Below are positions 3,562 through 26,006 of a stretch of 39,893 nt of DNA, piece by piece. Under the pieces are notes generated by a model. That model made no database searches and had not been told where the DNA came from. It saw nothing but the letters and a program-made list of their open reading frames with translations. The stretch spans positions 1 to 39,893 of the forward strand of contig CAMVMK010000016.1 of the NCBI GenBank assembly GCA_947168585.1. The letters run 5' to 3'. A program made the position numbers and the translations under genes. The DNA is from an uncultured Fretibacterium sp. (GTDB lineage: Bacteria > Synergistota > Synergistia > Synergistales > Aminobacteriaceae). Numbering within the stretch: the first letter of the stretch is position 1; each line of letters opens with the position of its first letter.

Positions 3562-4257
3562 TTGAGCCAGAGTAAATTAAAAATAATTACAAACGGGATT
3601 TTATCTGATAATCCTACGTTTGTTCAGTGTATTGGACTTTGCCCGACTTTAGCAGTTACAACAAGTGTTGCCAACGGTTTAGGCATGGGAATAGCGGCAA
3701 CGTTTGTATTAATTGCTTCGAACATGGTAATTTCGCTTTTAAGAAAAATGGTGCCTGACGAGGTCAGAATACCGATTTTTATCGTTGTTATCGCTGGTTT
3801 CGTTACGGTCATAGAGTTTTTAATGAAAGGTTTTGCGCCTGAATTAAATAAATCGCTTGGAATTTTTATCCCATTAATAGTCGTAAACTGCATTATTCTT
3901 GCACGCGCTGAGGCTTTTGCTTCTAAGAACGGAGTTTTTGCTTCCGCTCTTGACGGTATAGGAATGGGATTAGGATTTACAATAGCATTAACATTTTTGG
4001 GTTCAATCCGTGAGATTTTAGGCGGAGGGACTTGGCTGGGAACACCTGTTGTAAGTTTTGAGCCTGCAATGTTAATAGTATTAGCGCCGGGCGGATTTAT
4101 AATTTTAGGCTGCTGCATGGGTTTATTCAGAGCTATTCAAGCACGCTCTAAAGGTCTTGGGGCTGTACCTGCTGAGGCTGCTTCAGGTTGCGGGTGCTGT
4201 GCTATGGCTAAATTCTGCCACAAAGACAAAGACGAATGTGAGGAGGCGAAAGCATAA
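3562..4257 (+). CDS. rnfE: Rnf complex subunit E, with a cysteine-rich C-terminal tail
   Basis: Polytopic NqrD/RnfE family membrane protein, 231 residues. TFVQCIGLCPTLAVTTS near the start and NCIILARAEAFA in the middle are family hallmarks; conserved cysteines in these half-helices bind an iron-sulfur cluster shared with RnfA. The start is TTG, preceded by AAAGGGG 11 bases upstream; no ATG fits. The final 28 residues are unusual: GCGCCAMAKFCHKDKDEC carries five Cys (210, 212, 213, 219, 226) and a His after the last membrane helix. This could be an extra metal or cluster site. The stop overlaps the rnfA start by one base (TAATG), suggesting translational coupling. Confidence 0.94.
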   Translation: MSQSKLKIITNGILSDNPTFVQCIGLCPTLAVTTSVANGLGMGIAATFVLIASNMVISLLRKMVPDEVRIPIFIVVIAGFVTVIEFLMKGFAPELNKSLGIFIPLIVVNCIILARAEAFASKNGVFASALDGIGMGLGFTIALTFLGSIREILGGGTWLGTPVVSFEPAMLIVLAPGGFIILGCCMGLFRAIQARSKGLGAVPAEAASGCGCCAMAKFCHKDKDECEEAKA

Positions 4258-4844
4258 TGACGTTTACTGAATTAGTACTGCTTTTTATAAGCTCGATTTT
4301 TGTACATAATATTTTGCTTTCACGCTTCTTAGGATGCTGTCCTTTCATGGGTGTAAGTTCAAAGTTAAAAACTGCTCAAGGAATGGGCGCGGCTGTAGTT
4401 TTCGTCATAGTTCTTGCTTCGTTGATGACGTGGCTGACGTATAATTATCTGCTCGTTCCTTTACATCTTGAATATTTGTACACGCTTTCATTTATTTTGG
4501 TAATTGCGGCGTTGGTACAATTTGTAGAACTTGCATTAAAGAAATTAAATCCTGTTCTTTATAAATCGCTTGGAATTTTCCTGCCTTTAATTACAACTAA
4601 CTGCGCTGTTTTAGGCGTTGCAGTTTTGAACATGAATGAAGGTTACGGGCTTGCGGCGGCATTAGTAAATGCGTTAGGCTCGTCATTAGGATTTTTGCTC
4701 GCTATTTCGCTTATGGCCGGTATTCGTGAAAGAATTGAAGATAATGAGGGTATTCCTACGGCTTTGCGCGGTCTTCCAATGGCATTAATAACAGCAGGCT
4801 TGATGTCCATTGCTTTCATGGGCTTCACAGGAATTATTAAATAA
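4257..4844 (+). CDS. rnfA: Rnf complex subunit A
   Basis: Six-helix membrane protein of the NqrE/RnfA family, homologous to RnfE but in inverted topology. It begins with the motif NILLSRFLGCCPFMGVSS and has TTNCAVLGVAVLN at mid-length, which bring the conserved Cys residues for the shared intramembrane [2Fe-2S] centre. Its 195 residues are typical. The ATG overlaps the rnfE stop, and the gene's own stop lies within the strong AAGGAGG site that serves rnfB. Confidence 0.96.
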   Translation: MTFTELVLLFISSIFVHNILLSRFLGCCPFMGVSSKLKTAQGMGAAVVFVIVLASLMTWLTYNYLLVPLHLEYLYTLSFILVIAALVQFVELALKKLNPVLYKSLGIFLPLITTNCAVLGVAVLNMNEGYGLAAALVNALGSSLGFLLAISLMAGIRERIEDNEGIPTALRGLPMALITAGLMSIAFMGFTGIIK

Positions 4845-7974: not shown

Positions 7975-9051
7975 TTGCAAAATTTTACTAATCCTGCAAT
8001 CGAGAATTTAATACAAACTGCAATCAGCAGCGGCGCAAGTGATATTCATCTAAATTCAGGAACATTCCCGGCTATCCGCGTTCACGGCGAACTTAATTAT
8101 TTAACTTCGTCGGAAGAATTTACGAAAGAATCTCTTGAAAAATTTATAAGCGAAATTTTAACTCCGGCTCAGCTTGAAAGATTTAACCGTTCAGGAGATT
8201 TAGATTTTGCTTTCACTTACGGCACTCAAAGATTTAGAGGCAGTCTTTACAGAGAAATGCGCGGCTTATCGCTGACGTTCAGGCTCGTTCCCTCTGTCAT
8301 ACGTTCACTTGATGAACTCGGACTTCCGGAAATTTTGAAAACTATGGCTTATAAACACCGCGGATTATTTTTAGCTACAGGCCCTACAGGACACGGAAAA
8401 AGCTCAACTCTTGCGGCAATAATCGGCGAAATTAATCATAAAATTAAATCACACATCGTTACAATCGAAGATCCTATTGAATACGTTCATAAGCCTGACC
8501 TCGCTGTAATTCATCAAAGAGAAATCGGTAACGACACGGAAAATTTTGCTTCCGGAATACGCCACGTTCTGCGCCAAGACCCTGACGTTATTATGATCGG
8601 CGAAATGAGAGACTTAGAGACAATCGGCGCGGCTATAACAGCGGCTGAAACAGGACACTTAGTCTTCGGAACTCTTCACACTCAGGACGCTTCGCAGTCT
8701 ATTGAAAGAATTATTGATGTTTTCCCGCCTCATCAGCAAAATCAAATCCGTTTGCAGCTTTCTTATACTCTGCTTGGAATTTGCTCGCAGCAATTAATTC
8801 CGGCTATGAACGGCGGAAGAGTCTGCGCGACTGAAATTTTAATCACAACTCCTGCTATCCGCGCTTCGATACGTGAGGGAAAAATCAGCGGCATTAAAAA
8901 TTCAATGCTCACTGGAATGTCTTTCGGTATGCACACAATGGAGCAGGATTTAGCTAAAATGTTCCGCGAGGGCAGAATTTCACAATCTACTGCTAAAGAT
9001 TTTGCTTACGACCGCTCCGAAGTTGAAAGACTTATGACTATGGCAATGTAA
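7975..9051 (+). CDS. pilT: Type IV pilus retraction ATPase, PilT-like
   Basis: Hexameric secretion-superfamily ATPase that depolymerises type IV pili in twitching motility. Motifs in order: Walker A GPTGHGKSS (about residues 136-144), Asp box VTIEDPIEYVH, Walker B DVIMIGEMRD, and His box HLVFGTLHTQDA. The 358 residues match PilT. The Walker A has His where the family normally has Ser (GPTGSGKS). The start is TTG, with AAAAGGAG 11 bases upstream. The gene stands alone; no pilin, PilB, PilC or PilQ gene is in the window. Confidence 0.93.
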   Translation: MQNFTNPAIENLIQTAISSGASDIHLNSGTFPAIRVHGELNYLTSSEEFTKESLEKFISEILTPAQLERFNRSGDLDFAFTYGTQRFRGSLYREMRGLSLTFRLVPSVIRSLDELGLPEILKTMAYKHRGLFLATGPTGHGKSSTLAAIIGEINHKIKSHIVTIEDPIEYVHKPDLAVIHQREIGNDTENFASGIRHVLRQDPDVIMIGEMRDLETIGAAITAAETGHLVFGTLHTQDASQSIERIIDVFPPHQQNQIRLQLSYTLLGICSQQLIPAMNGGRVCATEILITTPAIRASIREGKISGIKNSMLTGMSFGMHTMEQDLAKMFREGRISQSTAKDFAYDRSEVERLMTMAM

Positions 9052-9126: not shown

Positions 9127-10168
9127 ATGCAGCAATTAGTGAGTATCATTATTCCGGTTTATAATGTTGCGCCGTTTCTCCGTGAAAGCCTCGACAGCGC
9201 AATTAATCAAACTTATAAAAATCTTGAAATAATTTTAGTCGATGACGGTTCAACAGACGAGTCCGGAATTATCTGCGATGAATATGCAAAACTCGACACA
9301 AGAATTAAAGTTATTCATCAAAAAAATCAAGGACTGAGCGCGGCCCGCAATACAGGGCTTGACATAATGAAAGGCAGCATAGTTTCATTTCTTGATTCTG
9401 ATGACGCTTTTTACCCTGATACTATAAAAACAATGGTCGAGACTATGCAGAATCAAAATTCGGACATAGTTTCATGCAATTATGAAGTTTTTGAAACTGA
9501 AGAATTTATGGACGCAGACAAAATTAAACCGTCTTTTATTTCTCAGCTTCCTAAAAAAATTACAAAAAGGGGGGGGGGTAATCGATTTTATAGAAGCCCT
9601 AAATGACTTAGCCCGATACGAAGTTTTCTGCACTGTATGGCTGAGAATATATAAGCGAAAATTATGGGAAGAAATACGTTTTCCGAACGGAAGAAATTAT
9701 GAAGATTCTGCAGTCATTCATAAAATCATATTAAAAGCCGGGCGGGTTTCTTATCTTGATAAAGTTTTCTACAAATACCGTAAACGTTCCGGCAGCATAT
9801 CCACAACGTCATCAGTTAAAAATATAAGCGATTATTTTTTAACAATGAAAGAATTTGACGCTTTTGTCAATGAAAATACTCCGAAAATATTTACCCCTCA
9901 AACACGAAGCATAAGAGCATCTATCAGTATAATGCCTTTATTTTATTTTGCTTTCATTGAACTTAAGAAAATAAAAACTCAAGAAAGCCTTGAGTTACAA
10001 AAAGCAATGAAAAAAGAAATTCTCTCAAAAATAAAACATCTCAGCTTAAGATATTTTCCGTTAAAAGGTCTTACAGTTTTCATTCTGATAAAATTCTGTC
10101 CGAGCTTATATCCGTTCATACGTTTATGCTATAGAGCCGTGAAAAAACTCGTAGGAATTAGAAAATAA
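9127..10168 (+). CDS. Family 2 glycosyltransferase, frameshifted at a G10 tract (likely phase-variable, OFF)
   Basis: The N-terminal part (to 9606) is a GT2 catalytic domain: VSIIIPVYNVAPFLRESLDS, LVDDGSTDESG, HQKNQGLSAARNTGLD and the DXD-type FLDSDDAFYPD. At 9569-9578 ten consecutive G shift the frame, and translation in the ATG frame stops at 9604-9606. The rest of the protein continues in the +1 frame to 10168 (GVIDFIEALNDLARYEVF, then RNYEDSAVIHKII, typical of this GT2 group). Nine or twelve G would restore one frame, giving about 346 residues with nine. The gene probably decorates a surface polysaccharide; the acceptor is unknown. No clear ribosome binding site precedes the ATG. Confidence 0.88.
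9569..9578. repeat. Homopolymeric G10 tract inside the glycosyltransferase gene
   Basis: Ten G in a row in AT-rich DNA, preceded by a run of A. It lies exactly at the reading-frame break and is the type of tract that changes length by slipped-strand mispairing. Confidence 0.9.
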
Positions 10169-24346: not shown

Positions 24347-24501
24347 TTATAATATTTTTAATCCGCCGATTTTTTTGTAAATATCTCCGCGCGAACCGGC
24401 CTCTAACGTTTCTGTAAATCTTTATGTTTTTCAAAAAATTTGTGAGCAGGTTTTTCATAAAAAACATAGACAGGTAAATCCGACCTTAATTCTAAAATCA
24501 T
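24347..24501 (-). pseudogene. Remnant of a RelE/ParE-like toxin (module A)
   Basis: Starts at an ATG overlapping the antitoxin stop (ATGA). The N-terminus YEKPAHKFFEKHKDLQKR matches the neighbouring toxins (YEKPAEKFFKKHEDV). The middle of the protein is then missing, the frame shifts and a stop follows. The conserved C-terminus AGSRGDIYKKIGGLKIL appears in another frame up to a TAA at 24347-24349. Only about 155 of the expected 320 bases remain. The catalytic core strands are gone, so the toxin must be dead while its antitoxin is intact. Confidence 0.85.
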
Positions 24502-24767
24502 GGTAATATTTTATGAACGCTCATAATTTCGTGATCTTCTTCGGACATTCTGTCGATTAAAGCTAAAAGTTCTGCGGACTCTTCGGGCGAGGCTTTTTCG
24601 ACATTTATACGGCGTGTATTCATAATCTCCTTTTGTTTCTGTTCCGTATATTCTTTTATAGCGTTTCTCAAAAAATCTGCCACTGACATTTGCGATAACG
24701 CTGCAACTTTCTGAATAACGGCTATTTCATCTGAATTAAAATTAAGGTCGAGAGCCGGTACAGACAA
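24498..24767 (-). CDS. RelB-like antitoxin, module A (toxin partner lost)
   Basis: 89 residues. The N-terminal half (MSVPALDLNFNSDEIAVIQK, then MSVADFLRNAIKEY) looks like a ribbon-helix-helix DNA-binding domain. The C-terminal half carries the motif shared by all three copies, ASPEESAELLALIDRMSEEDHE, presumably the toxin-binding part. TTG start with GGAGGGATTATT upstream, as in modules B and C. Its toxin is a remnant, so this antitoxin could now act only as a regulator or as an anti-toxin reserve for the neighbouring toxins; that is inference. Confidence 0.82.
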   Translation of the reverse strand: MSVPALDLNFNSDEIAVIQKVAALSQMSVADFLRNAIKEYTEQKQKEIMNTRRINVEKASPEESAELLALIDRMSEEDHEIMSVHKILP

Positions 24768-24801
24768 AATAATCCCTCCTTTGCGAAATAATTATATAAT
24801 T

Positions 24802-25122
24802 TTATAATATTTTTAATCCGCCGATTTTTTTATAAATATCTCCGCGCGAACCGGCATAAATTGCATTGACTAATATAGTCATATTTTCTTCGTCATATGT
24901 AAAAATAACGCGCCACTTTCCAAGTCTCATTCGGTAATATTCGCCCTGCTTACCCTCGATGGGTTTAACGTCAACTTTTTCCGGATGCTCGCCTGTAAAA
25001 AGTTCTTCAACTAAATTTTTATAACGTTTACGTACGTCTTCATGCTTCTTAAAAAATTTCTCAGCATCTTTATCATAGCGAACGCGTACTTTCATCTCTA
25101 CATTAACATTAACAATAATCAT
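24802..25122 (-). CDS. RelE/ParE-superfamily toxin, module B
   Basis: 106 residues. RYDKDAEKFFKKHEDVRKRY forms the N-terminal helices; YYRMRLGKWRVIFTYDEEN is the beta-sheet region with the Arg residues typical of RelE-like mRNA interferases. The C-terminal AGSRGDIYKKIGGLKIL has an Arg and Tyr placed like RelE catalytic residues. It is expected to cleave ribosome-bound mRNA or act on another target; the activity is not certain from sequence. The ATG overlaps the module B antitoxin stop by four bases, so the two are co-translated. Confidence 0.85.
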   Translation of the reverse strand: MIIVNVNVEMKVRVRYDKDAEKFFKKHEDVRKRYKNLVEELFTGEHPEKVDVKPIEGKQGEYYRMRLGKWRVIFTYDEENMTILVNAIYAGSRGDIYKKIGGLKIL

Positions 25123-25391
25123 ACGTAAATTATATCTTCGCGCACAACTTCACGATCTTCTTCAGACAAGCTGTCAATTAAAGCTAAAATTTCTGCTGAT
25201 TCTTCGGGCGATGCCTTCGGAAGATTTGCAAGACGCTGGCGAATCATTTCTCTTTTTTTTCGTTCTGCTTCTGCTCTTATCGCTCTATCTCTTAGTGTAT
25301 CGCGAACAATATCAGTGAACGACACCTTATAAAACTCAGCTAATCTTTTTAACGCTGCAATTTCGCTGGCATTCAAAGCCGGTACAGACAA
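25119..25391 (-). CDS. RelB-like antitoxin, module B
   Basis: 90 residues. MSVPALNASEIAALKRLAEF with KVSFTDIVRDTLRDRA resembles a ribbon-helix-helix domain. A charged Arg/Lys stretch follows, then the shared motif ASPEESAEILALIDSLSEEDRE. TTG start with GGAGGGATTATA in front. It directly precedes its toxin. As in other such modules it probably binds its own promoter region, alone and with toxin. Confidence 0.84.
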   Translation of the reverse strand: MSVPALNASEIAALKRLAEFYKVSFTDIVRDTLRDRAIRAEAERKKREMIRQRLANLPKASPEESAEILALIDSLSEEDREVVREDIIYV

Positions 25392-25415
25392 TATAATCCC
25401 TCCTTCGTGAAATAA

Positions 25416-25742
25416 TTATAACAATTTTAATCCGCCGATTTTTTTATAAATATCTCCGCGCGAACCGGCGTTAAGCGTGTCAATAACAGTTATATCATTG
25501 TTTTCATCGACCGTAAATATAATGCGCCAATCTCCGATTCTCATTCTGCAATATTCGTTCTTTTTGCCTTTTAATATTTTTATATCAAGCCTTTCAGGAT
25601 TTTTTCCGCAATATCTTTCCCATATTAGATTTTCATACTCTTCACGAACGTCTTCATGCTTCTTGAAAAATTTTTCAGCGGGCTTTTCGTACTTAATTTC
25701 ATACGGCGGTAACTTCTTTTTTGTAATATCATGTATAGTCAT
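25416..25742 (-). CDS. RelE/ParE-superfamily toxin, module C
   Basis: 108 residues. YEKPAEKFFKKHEDVREEYE and YCRMRIGDWRIIFTVDENN parallel module B, and the C-terminus AGSRGDIYKKIGGLKLL is encoded by DNA identical to B over 45 bases. The central part differs clearly from B (for example WERYCGKNPERLDI against VEELFTGEHPEKVDV), so the ends look homogenised by recombination while the core diverged. It starts six bases after the module C antitoxin. It appears intact. Confidence 0.85.
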   Translation of the reverse strand: MTIHDITKKKLPPYEIKYEKPAEKFFKKHEDVREEYENLIWERYCGKNPERLDIKILKGKKNEYCRMRIGDWRIIFTVDENNDITVIDTLNAGSRGDIYKKIGGLKLL

Positions 25743-25748
25743 CGTTCA

Positions 25749-26006
25749 TTAAACAGGTATAAATTTATCTACACGAACGACTTCATGATCTTCTTCGCTC
25801 ATGCTCTCTATCCAAGCTAAAAGTTCTGCAGATTCTTCCGGTGATGCTTCGGGGGCGTTACGCAAACTGTAAAAAAGGCTGTTCTGTTTTTCTTCAATAT
25901 ATTCCCTTATAGCTTTTCGTGCAAAATCAGCAACTGATATTTTATAAAAAGCCGCTATTTCTTTTATCTTTGCAATTTCGCTGGCATTCAAAGCCGGTAC
26001 AGACAA
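25749..26006 (-). CDS. RelB-like antitoxin, module C
   Basis: 85 residues. MSVPALNASEIAKIKEIAAF with KISVADFARKAIREYIEE resembles a ribbon-helix-helix domain; the tail motif ASPEESAELLAWIESMSEEDHE is shared with A and B. TTG start, preceded by GGAGGGATTATATT. It is the outermost module and faces the lytic transglycosylase across a 76-base divergent promoter region, so an autoregulating antitoxin bound there could affect both genes. Confidence 0.84.
   Translation of the reverse strand: MSVPALNASEIAKIKEIAAFYKISVADFARKAIREYIEEKQNSLFYSLRNAPEASPEESAELLAWIESMSEEDHEVVRVDKFIPV

Follow-up and report, generated by a model that had tools for sequence, protein, structure and literature searches.

A poly-G spacer between the −35 and −10 boxes makes a phase-variable promoter, as in Neisseria porA. 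At gonococcal pilE, which is a single locus, surface-gene variation proceeds by gene conversion and needs an adjacent cis element. To our knowledge, mismatch repair with MutS1 is absent from Campylobacter and Helicobacter. In the portions of the sources used here, the pilE G4 is described with an adjacent small-RNA promoter (PMC3547852) and Campylobacter jejuni NCTC11168 with 29 loci that have tracts of seven or more (PMC4965091). For the latter species, slippage is reported to depend on the number of repeats and not on the sequence beside them (PMC4965091). For Synergistetes, the excerpt of a further source gives inversions in one of two species (PMC5903667). The sequence-only reading of the DNA analyzed here knew of no well-described case in the phylum, and among the open-licence papers listed none was found for phase variation in Synergistetes or Synergistaceae.

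The window, the whole stretch of 39,893 nucleotides, corresponds to contig C16 in a Synergistaceae genome of 2.35 Mb (labelled G000). A glycosyltransferase (GT2) gene in it is split at ten consecutive G, as read directly from the window sequence:

7975-9051, forward strand: neighbouring PilT-like ATPase gene (Pfam T2SSE, E 3.3e-47)
9127-9606, forward strand: upstream part of the GT2 gene, ATG at 9127, stop at 9606, 159 aa, with the GT-A domain
9569-9578, forward strand: G10 tract between the two frames, the proposed slipped-strand switch
9578-10168, forward strand: downstream part of the GT2 gene in the next frame, stop at 10168, with the C-terminal match to intact homologues
9579-9587, forward strand: 3' flank of the tract, TA and then an AT-rich stretch

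The upstream part corresponds to Pfam family Glycos_transf_2 (PF00535; E 3.2e-42, 144.8 bits, curated cut-off 23.3) and an acidic DSDD motif is present in the GT2 sequence. No Pfam family was matched by the downstream part (9578-10168). The tract falls where the stretch that links the GT-A domain to the C-terminal region varies in length. The gene had been described earlier as split exactly at the ten G and as one 346-residue frame if joined; both statements agree with the positions of the frames and with the span 9127-10168 (1042 bases). The GC content is 34.4% in the GT2 gene and 38.9% in the window. In the neighbourhood within the window, no adjoining glycan genes were recognized besides the GT2 gene itself.

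Elsewhere in the window, the region 24498-26006 (reverse strand) contains two consecutive pairs of small genes of the type antitoxin plus ParE-like toxin. A fifth gene of this region resembles the first members of both pairs. The partners of the toxins resemble DUF6290, ribbon-helix-helix or Rv0623-like models, all below cut-off. The toxin matches are:

24805-25122, reverse strand: ParE_toxin match, E 2.3e-5
25419-25742, reverse strand: ParE_toxin match, E 2e-5

The two parts of the GT2 gene (N-part and C-part) were searched separately against the open reading frames of the fetched loci. Both parts match 18 of these frames and the N-part alone matches 33 more. The C-part has E-values below 0.001 in 6 of the 18 shared frames and follows the N-part in all six. 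The homology on both sides claimed by the sequence-only reading is thus present, with separately searched parts matching intact homologues in order. The closest homologue found (L310) belongs to genome G075, another species of the genus. It is 61% identical to the N-part over 121 aa and 25% identical to the C-part over 198 residues (E 3e-19 in a one-to-one comparison). A G9 tract is located between the same two matched regions of L310, which forms a single open frame of 367 aa. In 13 of the 15 other, less similar intact homologues the longest G/C run is at most 6. The exceptions are L033 and L061 with runs of 10 and 9, respectively.

The frame of the GT2 gene is broken as assembled, which would also be expected of a decaying pseudogene with an incidental G run. 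This explanation is hardly credible. With the tract set aside, each part reads open as far as the normal end of the gene, and runs of G≥9 are ~100 times commoner in the genome than expected. Homologues without a homopolymer had been named earlier as a sign of a fixed pseudogene, but L310, the closest found, has an open frame with the tract in the corresponding place.

Genome G000 contains 44 tracts of G≥9, compared with ~0.4 expected from a geometric extrapolation of the G3–G6 run spectrum. In the fetched loci of G000 (305 kb including the window, chosen for tracts) the numbers of runs are 2717, 441, 58, 8 and 4 for G3 to G7. Beyond G7 the numbers rise, with 7 runs of G8, 30 of G9, 6 of G10, 7 of G11 and one of G13. 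The set of 51 tracts of G≥8 refers to these fetched loci, the genome total of G≥8 being a larger set; G≥8 followed by TA is found at 58 places genome-wide. A rough rule based on open frames classes 36 of these 51 tracts as coding. At least 45 open codons are present on both sides of 29 tracts. The frame is the same across 12 of these and changes across 17, including three (L063, L084 and one in L093) that lie between two genes or involve an opposite-strand gene. Genes on the opposite strand hold five tracts (L064, L068, L075, L084 and L092), and in three of these the frames differ across the tract.

About 20 of the 51 tracts are located in genes of glycan-, methyl- or acyltransferase-type families, a count made within the tract set alone, in which some families score below cut-off or were assigned through a nearly identical paralogue. 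The families on one or both sides of tracts include GT2, GT11, GT4, CDP-glycerol glycerophosphotransferase, DUF4422 and hexapeptide transferase. Additionally, there are FkbM and other methyltransferases and an epimerase plus aminotransferase. Other tract genes encode a sodium:dicarboxylate symporter, a GGDEF protein, a response regulator with an HD domain, an M13 peptidase and a solute-binding protein. Matches to LpxB-like and MACPF-like families are both just below cut-off, and no family was found for 14 of the 40 searched pieces beside tracts. In L078, L083 and L087 one family is matched on both sides of the tract, with one of the two sides below cut-off in L083 and L087. Since the same family continues in different frames, these three genes are OFF as assembled.

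Eight tracts of G000 are positioned between TTGACA-like and −10-like boxes that are 15–21 bases apart, a raw count without a chance baseline. A ninth pair of boxes (L084) lies within a gene and was left out. The promoter-like tract of L089 precedes a gene for a 1032-residue glycosyltransferase. In L072 two outward-facing promoter-like sites (4042-4052 and 4464-4474) are separated by ~420 bases, and the spacer of each contains an 11-G run. A G9-TA sequence (L071:4051-4059) precedes by ~26 bases a flagellin gene of unusual size (1208 aa). The G10 tract at L063:1843-1852 is situated close to where a GGDEF gene ends, with an M13 peptidase gene starting ~10 bases further on; a change in its length would alter the GGDEF end or fuse both frames.

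Tracts of G9 are present in all 43 genomes of the genus searched, 810 altogether with G000 included. Tract loci were fetched for twelve of the 43, and the majority of the twelve were sampled incompletely. The tract coordinates of G075 and G007 equal those of Synergistaceae bacterium RGIG3488 and RGIG3568, both from goat rumen. An all-against-all comparison of loci chosen for tracts, with both sides matching within 15 residues of the tract, yielded eight cross-species pairs:

L106/L152, L110/L355, L120/L351, L127/L354
L132/L358, L075/L316, L313/L327, L090/L156

The sequence-only reading had proposed a comparison of tract lengths in related genomes. Besides the G9 of L310, this comparison gave lengths that differ in 8/8 of these pairs, which involve other tract genes. 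Exactly one member is open through in five pairs, both members in one and neither in two, and the state is accordingly the same in both members of 3/8 pairs. In a set of membrane proteins from four species (L129, L160, L318 and L360), matched on the upstream side only, a tract with differing flanks is kept at one C-terminal position. Among close paralogues within G000, the lengths differ in L088 (G10/G9) and L076 (G8/G9) and are equal in L077 (G9/G9) and L079 (G8/G8). All lengths are those of the assembly consensus, with one assembly per species, in which a long G run can be off by one base. Judged from these consensus sequences, the differences are between genomes or copies rather than switching observed within one of them.

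G runs are error-prone, and G000 is a metagenome assembly. The true length of the tract might therefore leave the GT2 gene open. We consider such an error unlikely; it would affect the state of one gene and is compatible with phase variation. The tract, its presence in L310 and the genome-wide repertoire stand regardless, and the 17 frame-changing tracts among the 29 with long open frames, the three between genes or on the opposite strand included, also argue against it.

The best reading of the locus is that proposed from the sequence alone, a phase-variable gene that is OFF in the assembly and whose closest homologue found has G9 and is open. The GT2 locus is very probably a poly-G contingency locus of the kind known from Campylobacter, Helicobacter and Neisseria. 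Its G10 tract is one of 44 in the genome, with a conserved neighbourhood, rather than a single odd gene. The tract would gain or lose G by replication slippage. A length change that is not a multiple of three would bring the downstream half into frame or take it out, and the enzyme would be made in some cells and be absent in others, with the assembled state corresponding to OFF. Tract length would accordingly vary within a population. The class of locus suggests slippage as the route and a cell-surface glycan as the target, and the GT2 enzyme probably decorates the bacterial surface.

The bases adjoining the tracts of G000 are strongly biased. TA directly follows 50 of the 51 tracts of G≥8 and 43 of the 44 of G≥9; after short runs (G3–G6) of the same genome TA is found in 144 of 3224 cases (4.5%). 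The only tract of the 51 without TA is the promoter-like L085. Biased columns after the tract are +1 to +4 and +7 to +9, corresponding to TA and a T-rich stretch at +7 to +9. Columns −1, −3, −4 and −6 before the tract are also biased, and GT or AA is the preceding dinucleotide for 28 of 50 distinct tracts. An EM motif search of the downstream side scored 100.8 compared with 62.8 for control stretches, and upstream it gave no more than the control (57.9 and 58.3, respectively). The TA is maintained across all three downstream frames, with either coding strand and at 7/8 promoter-like sites.

Several causes of the TA were considered and rejected. A cause at the protein level does not fit the coding tracts, which use all three downstream frames (GTA 18, GGT 12 and TAx 6 among 36, by the longest open frame). 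Furthermore, the TA stays on the G strand where the gene is on the C strand (L064, with a family match below cut-off, L068, L075, L084 and L092). Internal promoters explain at most eight tracts, and the coding tracts show no clear enrichment at −10 box position six (T in 15/36). The idea of an immediate stop codon in the OFF frame does not hold where TAT or TAC follows the tract.

Homopolymers of eight or more are described, in the part of the source used, as slip sites in programmed transcriptional realignment (PMC3711429). RNA polymerase or the ribosome could thus slip on a G run of fixed length and yield a fixed fraction of full-length product, with no switching of the DNA. This is very improbable, as tract lengths differ in all cross-species pairs, the untranslated tracts in 7/8 promoter-like spacers have the same TA neighbour and L310 is open through without slippage. 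A leaky read-through of the OFF state is possible. Phase variation by changes in the length of the DNA tract remains the preferred reading.

Ten genomes were available for comparison of the TA. Two of them belong to the genus (TA after 12/14 and 6/8 tracts), one was dropped and seven other poly-G-rich genomes were left. In these seven, TA follows 5–41% of the tracts (104/433 pooled); they had been found via a pattern containing Gn-TA, so that any bias is towards TA. The genome dropped is that of Proteobacteria bacterium S015_14, which had appeared to be a second Gn-TA genome (33/41). The eight loci read from it (L193, L233, L245, L249, L254, L255, L257 and L263) all belong to a single dispersed repeat longer than 60 bases, which contains G9-13 followed by TAAAATTT and whose G length varies between copies. 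In Campylobacter troglodytis TA follows 19 of 68 tracts of G≥9, and the flank columns are weak (at most 0.43 bit in the 40 of 68 tracts read). No flank column passed in the 20 of 108 tracts read from Helicobacter bilis. Across the whole genus TA follows only 349 of the 810 tracts, and therefore the extreme bias is a property of the species of the window. Genomes G009, G022 and G075 are also rich in TA (25 of 30 tracts read, 33/43 by whole counts).

In several other species of the genus the TA is weaker and GTA[AT][AT] is present instead ~16 bases upstream of the tract. In G073 TA follows 20 of 49 tracts, and the motif T[AC][AC]GTAAWT precedes 37 of the 49, with its start mostly at −22 to −19. 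The EM likelihood score of this upstream motif is 167.8 compared with 65.7 for control stretches; downstream of the G073 tracts the search gave no more than the control (53.4 and 63.7, respectively). The word GTA[AT][AT], derived from G073, was counted in the stretch from −24 to −8 with a control stretch alongside. It is found at 32/49 tracts in G073 (control 7), 14/28 in G080 (control 3), 6/15 in G071 (control 0) and 8/19 in five other genomes (control 1). The counts are 4/44 in G000 (control 2) and 3/30 in G009, G022 and G075 (control 2). Pooling of G080, G071 and the five genomes gives 28/62 compared with 4/62 in the control (p = 5e-7), a partial test in that some of these tracts had been viewed before the word was picked. 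For G071 alone, the EM scores are 47.2 compared with 42.1 upstream and 41.3 compared with 38.8 downstream. The upstream column counts of G080 are diffuse, and the motif is supported there by the word count only. The flank motifs were derived from the same data that display them.

An uptake-sequence-like repeat spread over the genome was rejected as a source of the upstream motif: in the G073 loci the density of CGTAAWT is 7.58 per kb in the 35 bases that precede a tract compared with 0.314 per kb elsewhere. Insertion of a cassette made of motif plus tract was not seen in the two cases inspected (L083 and L078), where the Pfam columns run across the tract with a few spare residues. Unrelated genes of one species thus share a short tract neighbour, and a different one is found in further species of the genus. 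The signatures are Gn-TA on the 3' side in the species of the window, with TA frequent in G009, G022 and G075, and GTA[AT][AT] ~16 bases to the 5' side in others.

Slippage alone does not explain these motifs, because in C. jejuni, according to the part of the source used, repeat number and not the flank governs slippage (PMC4965091). TA-rich DNA beside the tract may melt easily and raise its mutability in a passive manner. Passive melting does not readily explain the flank of the one clade in which the motif lies 16 bases away. Clade-specific flanks are unexpected under switching by length only and hint at a factor that reads the sequence. Such a factor beside the tract might make it form or mutate, and the loci would then constitute a directed, factor-assisted contingency system with a clade-specific signature. 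We offer this interpretation tentatively, as a possibility with the odds against it. The factor could be a protein that binds or nicks DNA, or else a site where a primase or transcription starts.

As judged by MutS, loss of mismatch repair is unsupported as the cause of switching. A MutS_I (PF01624) match is present in G000 in an open frame of 864 codons and in all 25 genomes of the genus searched, G000 included (partial in G021). The loss of MutS therefore does not explain high switching here. Neither a MutS_I match nor a G9-TA tract was found in G013, G018, G020 and G028, which represent other families of the order. In G102 and G138, from other genera of the phylum, G9-TA occurs 10 and 6 times, respectively, and the reversed control 0 times in both. 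To go by these counts, other parts of the phylum may also have poly-G switching.

The results add a phylum for which no description of poly-G switching was found among the open-licence papers listed. The repertoire is similar in size to that of Campylobacter, and the genus has goat-rumen members. The clade-specific flanks, which are present in any frame, with either coding strand and at promoter-like sites, are at odds with a model in which tract length alone determines switching. The effect of the flank on the switching rate is directly testable.

As far as the excerpt of the C. jejuni study goes, the tracts of G000 resemble the poly-G/poly-C loci of that species in lying within genes, in the proposed frame switching and in a comparable number of loci per genome; the C. 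jejuni loci mostly concern the modification of surface structures. They differ from those of Campylobacter in belonging to the Synergistaceae rather than the Campylobacterota and in the presence of a MutS match. Compared with Campylobacter troglodytis, TA follows 43/44 tracts of G≥9 here and 19/68 there. The eight tracts in candidate promoter spacers of 15–21 bases are similar to the spacers of Neisseria porA, whereas the tract of the window itself is coding. With the pilE G4 the tracts have in common a G-rich DNA element and an adjoining cis element. In contrast to pilE, no promoter-like pattern accounts for the flanks of the coding tracts, and slippage of the tract at dozens of loci is proposed here instead of gene conversion at one.
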